64,000 bases of DNA from Acidobacteriota bacterium (GTDB lineage Bacteria > Acidobacteriota > Terriglobia > 20CM-2-55-15). The stretch lies in assembly GCA_022821145.1 (NCBI GenBank), contig JAJEEE010000024.1:1-64000 (forward strand). Reading direction: 5' to 3'. Every line of letters begins with the position of its first letter. Within the stretch, counting starts at the first letter, position 1. The notes beneath the pieces were generated by a model that had not been told where the DNA came from, ran no database searches, and worked only from the letters and a program-made list of their open reading frames with translations. A program made the position numbers and the translations under genes. Below are positions 42,547 through 44,897 of this stretch, piece by piece.

Positions 42547-43289
42547 TCCGTCCGGCCCTGCCGGAAGAACGCCTTCGCGGCGGTGACGAACGCCTCGAAT
42601 ACGTTCATGCACTGCGCGTCGTCGGCGACGTGCCGCTCCGGATGGAACTGCAGGCCGATTCGGAAGGGATGCCCGGTGTCGTAGAACCCCTCGATCAACC
42701 CGTCGGAGGTATGGCACATGGGCGCCAACCCCTCGCCCAGCGTCTTGATTCCCTGGTGGTGGAAGCTGTTGGCCATGAAGCGGGTCGCGCCCACCCACGC
42801 GTGCAGCGGCGTGCCTTCGACGACGGCGATCTCGTGGCGGTACCCGTCGTAGTTGTCCGGGTCCACGTGCTTGAGAGCGGCGCCCAACTCGTGCCGCACG
42901 TCGCCGTAGAGCGTGCCGCCGCGCGCGATGTTGAACGCGTGGCAACCCCGGCACACGCCCAGGTAGGGCTGGCCTTCGGCGAGAACCCGGGCGATGAGCG
43001 CGAATTCCAACGCGTCGCGCTCCAGGTCGGGCGGCTCGATCAGGTCCAGTGGACTGTCGGCGCCGCCGTAGCGGCGCGTATCGATGTCGTTGCCTTCGAC
43101 GACGAGCAACCCGTGCACGGGTCCGTAGGCGTCGAGACGATCGACGGTTCCCTGGACGCGCGGTATCGGGATCGGTACGCCGCCCCCCGCGGCGATCTGC
43201 TCCAGGTAGGTTTCCTGAACGATGTTCTGCCAGCGGCCCTTGCGCAGGTCGTGGCGCATGACGACGAAGATTCGGGGCGCGTCAGGCAT
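42543..43289 (-). CDS. Class I glutamine-amidotransferase-like hydrolase (peptidase C26)
   Basis: A 248-residue enzyme of the gamma-glutamyl-gamma-aminobutyrate hydrolase group, with the catalytic triad visible as C113 (GVCRGCHAFN), H216 and E218 (FHPERH). The oxyanion region GLLVVEGNDID also fits. PuuD-like members remove gamma-glutamyl groups from amines. It overlaps the aminotransferase gene by eight bases and the transporter gene by four, so the three are translationally coupled. A polyamine-type or other amino-compound substrate is an inference. Confidence 0.85.
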   Translation of the reverse strand: MPDAPRIFVVMRHDLRKGRWQNIVQETYLEQIAAGGGVPIPIPRVQGTVDRLDAYGPVHGLLVVEGNDIDTRRYGGADSPLDLIEPPDLERDALEFALIARVLAEGQPYLGVCRGCHAFNIARGGTLYGDVRHELGAALKHVDPDNYDGYRHEIAVVEGTPLHAWVGATRFMANSFHHQGIKTLGEGLAPMCHTSDGLIEGFYDTGHPFRIGLQFHPERHVADDAQCMNVFEAFVTAAKAFFRQGRTD

Positions 43290-44454
43290 GGGCCGGGTCC
43301 GTCGGGTACATCTTCTTCAGGACGGCCACCAGCTTCCGGTCCCGGGCGCGCCGCTGGCTGGCGATTCGAATATGGCGCGCGTCCATGCCGACCTTGTTGG
43401 TGCAGTCGCGGACGTACATGCGGTGCCGGCCGAGCAGCTCCGTCTGCACGTCGCGGGCCGTCGTGCCGATGGGGACGCGGACCAGGATGAAGTTGGCGCC
43501 GGTGGGGTAGACCTTCAGCGCCGGAATGCCGCCGAGTTCGCAGGCCAGCCACTGCGTATCGGCGATCACCTTGAGGCGCGACGTCTCGTACTGGCGCGCC
43601 GTGGCGGGCAGGAGCGACAGGAAGTACTCGGCCAGCGTGTTGACGTTCCAGACCGCCATGTGAGACCGGAGCCGCCGGATGACTTCCGGATTGCCGCTTG
43701 CGGCGTAACCCAGGCGGAGGCCCGGAACGCCGCAGTGCTTGCTCATGGAGCGAATGATCAGCAGGTTCGGGAACGCGCTCATGTGCGGCAGCAGGCTGGG
43801 AACGGGCGTGCCGGCGAAGTCGATGAAGCTCTCGTCCACGATCACGAGGTCGAGGAACGCCGCCTTCTTCAGGAATCGCCGCATCGCCCGCACGCTGAAG
43901 GTCTGCCCGGTCGGGTTGCCCGGGTTGATCACGAGCGCGGCCCGCAGTTTTCGTTCGCGGATCCATTCCAGGTAGGCGTCGAGGTCCATCCGGTAGTCGT
44001 TCTCGGGATCCAGGTAGTAGAGCTCGGAGACGGCGCGATCGCTGAGGTGTTGGACGTACTCGCTGAACGTCGGGACGGCGACGCCGATGCGGCGCATCAG
44101 GTGGTCCATCACCAGCGCGATGATCTCGGTCGCGCCGTTGCCGACGAGCAGGTGCTCGGCCGACACGCCCATGACGGCCGACAGGTGGCGTTCGCCCCGT
44201 CCGCGGGAGCTGCCCGGGTACGACGTGATCAGGTCGACGAAGCGGTCCCGCATCTTCCGAATCATTGCCGGCGTCGGGTAGTAGTGGTTGGCGATGTAGC
44301 AGAAGTCGATGATCCGCCGGGCCTCGTCCACGCCCACCAGCTCGATCAGGCTGGGTGAGTGCGTGGTCTCGGAAAAGAGGCGCCGGCGGTGGTCGTCCCG
44401 CGCGCGGGACCGTCCGGACGCCTTACCCGAAGACGCGACCGTAAGTCTCTTCAT
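43282..44454 (-). CDS. PLP-dependent class I/II aminotransferase, HisC/CobD-like
   Basis: A 390-residue fold-type I PLP enzyme. It has GNGATEII (phosphate-binding region, about 105-112), INPGNPTGQ (about 176-184), the Asp in IVDESFIDF (about 205-213), the Schiff-base K239 in RSMSKHCGVPGLRLGY, and the C-terminal Arg in HIRIASQ. The closest named groups are histidinol-phosphate aminotransferase and CobD; without his or cob neighbours the substrate is open. Its start overlaps the end of the selenoprotein-like gene by 32 bases. Confidence 0.85.
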   Translation of the reverse strand: MKRLTVASSGKASGRSRARDDHRRRLFSETTHSPSLIELVGVDEARRIIDFCYIANHYYPTPAMIRKMRDRFVDLITSYPGSSRGRGERHLSAVMGVSAEHLLVGNGATEIIALVMDHLMRRIGVAVPTFSEYVQHLSDRAVSELYYLDPENDYRMDLDAYLEWIRERKLRAALVINPGNPTGQTFSVRAMRRFLKKAAFLDLVIVDESFIDFAGTPVPSLLPHMSAFPNLLIIRSMSKHCGVPGLRLGYAASGNPEVIRRLRSHMAVWNVNTLAEYFLSLLPATARQYETSRLKVIADTQWLACELGGIPALKVYPTGANFILVRVPIGTTARDVQTELLGRHRMYVRDCTNKVGMDARHIRIASQRRARDRKLVAVLKKMYPTDPAHA

Positions 44455-44767
44455 CGAAGCCGACCAGCAGGGCGCGGCCCGTCCTCAGGGCGGGGGCCCG
44501 CAGCTTGCCGTTCCGGCAGATGGCGTCGAGGATCTCCTTCCGGGCCGGTTTCGTTTTTTTGAGGTCGAAGACGACGACCCGCTTGCCGACGGTGGCATAG
44601 ACCACGTCGACCCGCCCGACCAGATCCAGCGCTTCGGCTTCGGGCACGGCCGCCTTGCGGGCGTTGACTTCGTCGGCGACGGGGATCCCGCGGTTCGCAA
44701 GAAACTCCTGCGTTTTGCCGCACGTCTTTCAGGACGGTCGATGATAGCTCCAGTCGACTCGTGGCAT
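44423..44767 (-). CDS. Probable selenoprotein: ArsC/Spx-like thioredoxin-fold protein with UxxC
   Basis: Read from ATG 44767 through an in-frame TGA (44731-44729, codon 13) to the stop at 44423, the frame encodes 114 residues. It begins MPRVDWSYHRPS-U-KTC and goes on through GKTQEFLANRGIPV, VNARKAA, GKRVVVFDLKK, GKLRAPALR and LLVGFDEETYGRVFG. That is the complete plan of a small ArsC/Spx-like family (about 115 residues) which I recall with Cys at the TGA position (HRxxCxxC). A strong AGGAGG is placed before ATG 44767, which makes no sense if translation stopped after 12 codons. A SECIS-like hairpin follows the TGA. The alternative is a nonsense mutation at the redox Cys. It heads the operon continuing into the aminotransferase gene. 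Confidence 0.72.
44696..44712 (-). promoter_or_regulatory. SECIS-like hairpin downstream of the in-frame TGA
   Basis: On the minus strand CGCAGGA-GTT-TCTTGCG forms a 7-bp stem (one G-U pair) with a 3-base loop starting with G. The loop lies 23 bases after the TGA. A G at the start of the apical loop and a distance of roughly 16-37 bases are the usual features of bacterial SECIS elements. Confidence 0.5.
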
Positions 44768-44897
44768 GGCCGTTCCTCCTCGTCCGAGACGGTGCTCCGC
44801 AGCCTGACCCGGCTCGGGCGCCGCCGCGGTCCGGACAACGCATTGTAGCAGGCGTTCCGTCTTCGCGATCGCCGCCCGCCGTTCCGGCGCAAAACCG

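Follow-up and report, generated by a model that had tools for sequence, protein, structure and literature searches.

What does the minus-strand frame between positions 44,767 and 44,423 of this window encode, and is the TGA at its thirteenth codon read as an amino acid? The window, the whole stretch of DNA analyzed, comprises 64,000 nucleotides of contig JAJEEE010000024.1 from an Acidobacteriota bacterium. A sequence-only reading had proposed a small ArsC/Spx-like selenoprotein here, complete only if the TGA is read, and had given no strand. We confirm a 114-amino-acid frame on the minus strand, which runs from 44767 to 44423 through 12 codons counting the ATG, the TGA and 101 further codons to a TAA; translated with TGA as U, it reads MPRVDWSYHRPSUKTCGKTQEFL...VFG and then stops. 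The other elements that had been described were found in place: an AGGAGG before the upstream ATG, a frame open on both sides of a single in-frame TGA, the TGA at the first position of an expected CxxC (UKTC, codons 13 to 16), and a 7-bp hairpin with a G-first loop 23 nt after the TGA. The features are as follows.

44423 to 44767, minus strand: predicted selenoprotein gene, ArsC/Spx-like, family NF041106, 114 amino acids and a TAA stop (from translation with TGA as U, the NF041106 match and homologues with the same TGA).
44729 to 44731, minus strand: TGA codon 13, predicted selenocysteine (Sec), first position of U-x-x-C (all TGA-bearing homologues that were read have it at this codon; L056 and L059 have TGC).
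44720 to 44722, minus strand: TGC codon 16, partner Cys of the UxxC motif (conserved at 90% or more in alignment A2; Ser in L036).
44775 to 44780, minus strand: Shine-Dalgarno sequence AGGAGG, 7 nt before the ATG (from the sequence).
44696 to 44712, minus strand: putative bacterial SECIS upper stem-loop, CGCAGGA-GUU-UCUUGCG (7/7 pairs, conservation, covariation).
44690 to 44721, minus strand: extended form of the hairpin, in which an internal loop sets off a lower stem, GCGG/CCGC (minimum-free-energy fold; weakly supported).

A GGAG-like motif also precedes the start in most homologues. The layout of a single window is not decisive, as 3 of its 1,169 TGA sites combine an upstream ribosome-binding site and ATG with 90 or more open codons downstream, and homology is therefore needed. 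With homology taken into account, we assign a probability of about 0.9 to an intact selenoprotein gene of family NF041106 as the best overall explanation; that the product is a selenoprotein at all appears, from comparison of sequences, almost certain.

The window protein is a full-length match to the NCBIfam model NF041106 (ArsC_rel_Se_1, 'ArsC family (seleno)protein'; 114.2 bits for a cut-off of 85, profile positions 1-107 of 107), sharing the UxxC motif and the position occupied by Sec or Cys, and differing in nothing essential. A 2026 review lists NF041106 in its Table 1 as 'arsenate reductase-like' with a UxxC motif, among high-confidence predicted selenoproteins (PMC13188914), that is, with the same family model and motif as the window gene, and credits the entry to its reference 61, the GOS ocean survey, where 'Arsenate reductase 2' (cd03032, UxxC) comprises 42 sequences (PMC2398784). 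Judging from the motif and the reference number, the two entries would be the same group; the window gene comes from a bacterial genome assembly, whereas the GOS group came from ocean metagenome reads. The 'arsenate reductase' selenoprotein from the Sargasso Sea (PMC1088965) shares the superfamily and a Sec at the equivalent catalytic position, but it carries UxxS under TIGR00014, while the window protein carries UxxC without a TIGR00014 match. The window gene is a new member of an already known family, whose existence is not new: the proposal of a selenoprotein is supported as such but is less novel than had been implied, the family being already catalogued as NF041106 and present in published lists. 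A literature search by specific phrases found no biochemical work on an NF041106-type protein.

The AlphaFold model, with Sec modeled as Cys, has a thioredoxin-like fold (pLDDT 94.6, pTM 0.87) in which residue 13 lies just before a helix (14-25) and residues 55-68 form a beta-hairpin (strands 55-60 and 63-68). Foldseek retrieved Spx, ArsC-related proteins and glutaredoxins at a TM of about 0.5-0.6 of the query, with some glutaredoxin-sized targets covered at about 0.7. The best sequence-profile matches are Spx (PDB 1z3e, 3gfk, 7f75) and ArsC-related structures (3gkx, 1rw1), and Spx reaches a profile E of about 1e-12 and a Foldseek probability of 1.00; against these structures, however, the TM is only 0.5-0.6 and the identity low, and the window protein is shorter, has Sec for Cys, and differs in a loop and in its arginines.

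Being the closest solved structure by sequence and fold, Spx, whose CxxC is a redox switch, suggests that the product might be a selenium-containing redox sensor that binds RNA polymerase and alters transcription when its UxxC is oxidized. We consider this unlikely. The match to the Spx-type model TIGR01617 is 28.1 bits for a cut-off of 75.05, Spx models also score far below their cut-offs, the protein has 114 amino acids versus 131-132 in Spx, and its model shows the beta-hairpin at 55-68. In the profile alignment, the four-residue loop of Spx with Gly52 is missing from the family and the second Arg of the Spx 'RRP' is Ala, which argues against Spx function. Gly52 and Arg60 are the Spx contacts to RNA polymerase alpha; the loop with the former is absent here and the position of the latter is not Arg. 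With TIGR01617 and the Spx models below cut-off and the contact residues missing, membership in Spx was not accepted.

A selenium-dependent arsenate reductase, the function that the published lists evoke by the name arsenate reductase-like and that a match to Pfam ArsC would allow (PF03960, 24.7 bits for a cut-off of 24, Sec written as Cys), seems no more probable than the sensor. The arsC equivalog model TIGR00014 does not match the window protein even at E up to 1, which together with the changed loop and arginine speaks against arsenate reduction; membership in ArsC was not accepted. The substrate-binding arginines of E. coli ArsC are Arg60, Arg94 and Arg107; the arginine of 'RP' is Ala in the window protein, as seen in alignments of the family and Spx profiles rather than in a residue-wise alignment to ArsC itself, whereas the TGA-bearing TIGR01617-type relatives mostly keep the 'RRP' Arg. 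No arsenic-resistance genes occur among the neighbors examined.

Arsenate reductase and true Spx regulator are thus both improbable identities for the protein. We think it probable that it works as a thiol/selenol oxidoreductase instead, most likely a glutaredoxin-like one. In the mechanism that we propose, the UGA at codon 13 would be decoded as Sec by the SelA, SelB, SelD and tRNA-Sec of the host, directed by the stem-loop that begins 16 nt after the UGA and bears a GUU apical loop. The product would belong to the ArsC/Spx superfamily and consist of one thioredoxin-fold domain, whose first helix has at its N-terminus the Sec of a U-x-x-C motif; the selenolate might attack a disulfide, a peroxide or another oxidized substrate, and Cys16 may then resolve the intermediate as a selenenylsulfide, in glutaredoxin-like fashion. 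Such a UxxC redox cycle, whose substrate and partner we infer, is the most economical reading. More tentatively, and in our view rather doubtfully, NF041106 could be a selenoenzyme with a function of its own, distinct from arsenate reductase and from Spx, in which the ArsC/Spx fold has an altered insert (the beta-hairpin of the model) and changed substrate arginines, so that Sec drives an undescribed redox reaction.

The TGA could also be a true nonsense mutation in a former CxxC protein, with a 74-amino-acid downstream fragment or nothing at all being made. The ORF list fits this: in the absence of recoding it contains only a GTG-initiated 74-residue fragment at 44423-44647, just as had been expected of an ordinary gene caller. 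Missing from that fragment, however, would be the active site together with the fold's first strand and first helix, and the TGA recurs at one and the same codon in relatives. Among 11 genomes of the order examined, a same-genus homologue encodes an 80% identical protein and keeps one in-frame TGA. Across the phylum, strong NF041106 matches that contain exactly one TGA occur in 37 of 396 genomes, which represent at least 12 families, and further members with the TGA at the same codon lie in contigs whose record titles label them Bryobacterales, Zixibacteria, Nitrospinota, Planctomycetes, Wallbacteria and Myxococcales. The sequence-only reading had named random stops elsewhere in close relatives as a sign of a pseudogene; what the relatives show is a TGA exactly here and no other stop. 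It had also asked which codon homologues carry at position 13, and beside the TGA of most, two have TGC: L056 (labelled Planctomycetaceae) and L059 (Actinobacteria). The column is invariant once Sec is written as Cys. Compared with its same-genus homologue, the gene has a pN/pS of 0.09 ahead of the TGA and of 0.41 beyond it (after the hairpin), indicating purifying selection on both sides, and codons 19-24, which hold the hairpin, show zero substitutions. In one homologue, L036 (genome G233), UxxS (UTSS) replaces UxxC, yet the TGA and the hairpin are kept.

The hairpin begins 16 nt after the TGA and its loop G lies 23 nt after it, which agrees with a bacterial SECIS, a stem-loop shortly after the UGA whose small apical loop opens with a G. 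Its folding energy is unremarkable (z = -1.3), so that the case for a SECIS rests on conservation and on synonymous-codon shuffles, of which a fraction of 0.0074 (0.74%) pair equally well in the window gene. In the main clade, where the loop opens with GU, the seven pairs hold a single register and compensatory changes are seen: 22 distinct sequences have 98.1% of cells paired and three pairs altered on both sides, and their covariation score is above that of each of the 500 shuffles and of every slid version. Of the seven pairs, L056 forms 2/7 and L059 3/7, so that these two Cys homologues do no better than shuffled sequences. In one clade (L040, L044-L054, L068) the hairpin lies in a shifted register and its loop contains GU, and the main-clade stem is not found in the divergent members L039 and L041-L043. 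The lower stem of the extended hairpin is weakly supported because even L024, the same-genus homologue, does not conserve it. Across species, TGA and hairpin are conserved to a degree that far exceeds chance.

The host genome (G000, 4.18 Mb, 99% complete) encodes the machinery that such a signal would serve: a tRNA-Sec (75.1 bits, anticodon TCA) and selB (380 bits), selA (545 bits) and selD (360 bits), all above curated cut-offs. These are the four components that the sequence-only reading had suggested looking for, and they include selB and tRNA-Sec, whose absence it had equated with a pseudogene. selA is present in every genome whose match contains a TGA (46 genomes, 37 with strong and 9 with weak matches), for a background of 252/396 phylum genomes overall and 8/36 genomes with stop-free matches, the latter being distant relatives, mostly of one family. 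Comparing the 37 genomes with strong TGA-bearing matches to the rest gives a Fisher P of 2.6e-8, a value that ignores relatedness; the counts are not independent, as the bulk of the phylum-wide set comes from few families. With TGA, frame and hairpin all conserved and selA in all TGA-bearing genomes, we rejected the pseudogene, which we now regard as very improbable. General readthrough of the UGA, or its reading as another amino acid without selenium, is less probable still, since we found nothing in its support, while the genome has a dedicated tRNA-Sec (TCA) and SelB, homologues have Cys at the site, and the SECIS-like hairpin is present in main-clade TGA members and absent from both Cys homologues.

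The neighborhood of this predicted selenoprotein gene tells little about its role. In the window it is surrounded by genes for an aminotransferase, a class-I glutamine amidotransferase-like C26 peptidase, a MATE transporter and a metallo-beta-lactamase-fold protein. An all-against-all comparison of flanking ORFs found no neighbors conserved beyond close clades; clusters of flanking ORFs occur only within such clades, namely the Nitrospinota-labelled loci and L026 with L029-L031, where by eye a D12-type DNA methylase-like ORF precedes the gene. Because neighbors are shared only inside close clades, no functional link can be drawn from them. The aminotransferase ORF (43282-44454, minus strand) has its ATG within the end of the selenoprotein gene, an ATG that the same-genus homologue also has, and the two genes may possibly be translationally coupled.

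Standard gene calling truncates a real gene here, and tens of genomes of the phylum have the same TGA-bearing gene. The sharply conserved SECIS and the existence of both Sec and Cys forms make NF041106 convenient for testing what Sec contributes to the ArsC/Spx fold. At least eight other genes of the host genome, recognized solely by profile matches and by where the motif lies, have a TGA at a Sec-like site (SelW-like, UGSC-like and six AhpC/TSA-type, peroxiredoxin-like), and these apparent selenoprotein genes could suffer a similar truncation. The SelW-like gene (L099, C61:103095-103301; PF10262, CVPU) likely encodes a selenoprotein, as its motif suggests. A relative of the UGSC family (L100, C79:55846-56253) has one TGA in GHUSTC; its score of 55.4 bits falls short of the 125 set as the family cut-off. 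Six of the 16 AhpC/TSA-type genes of the host (L101, L102, L104, L105, L108, L109) contain one in-frame TGA, placed at the peroxidatic or UxxC position (GUT, VUT, UPNC, UPYC, UPFC).

Among the weak matches that we read, a second TGA-bearing ArsC/Spx group with UTTC or UTSC is present in ten genomes of the phylum (L111-L120). Its members are closest to TIGR01617 or Spx models, with three of the seven scanned above the TIGR01617 cut-off, and mostly retain the TRS/TRN and RRP residues; from these sequence features they are apparently selenocysteine forms of the Spx/MgsR/YffB type.
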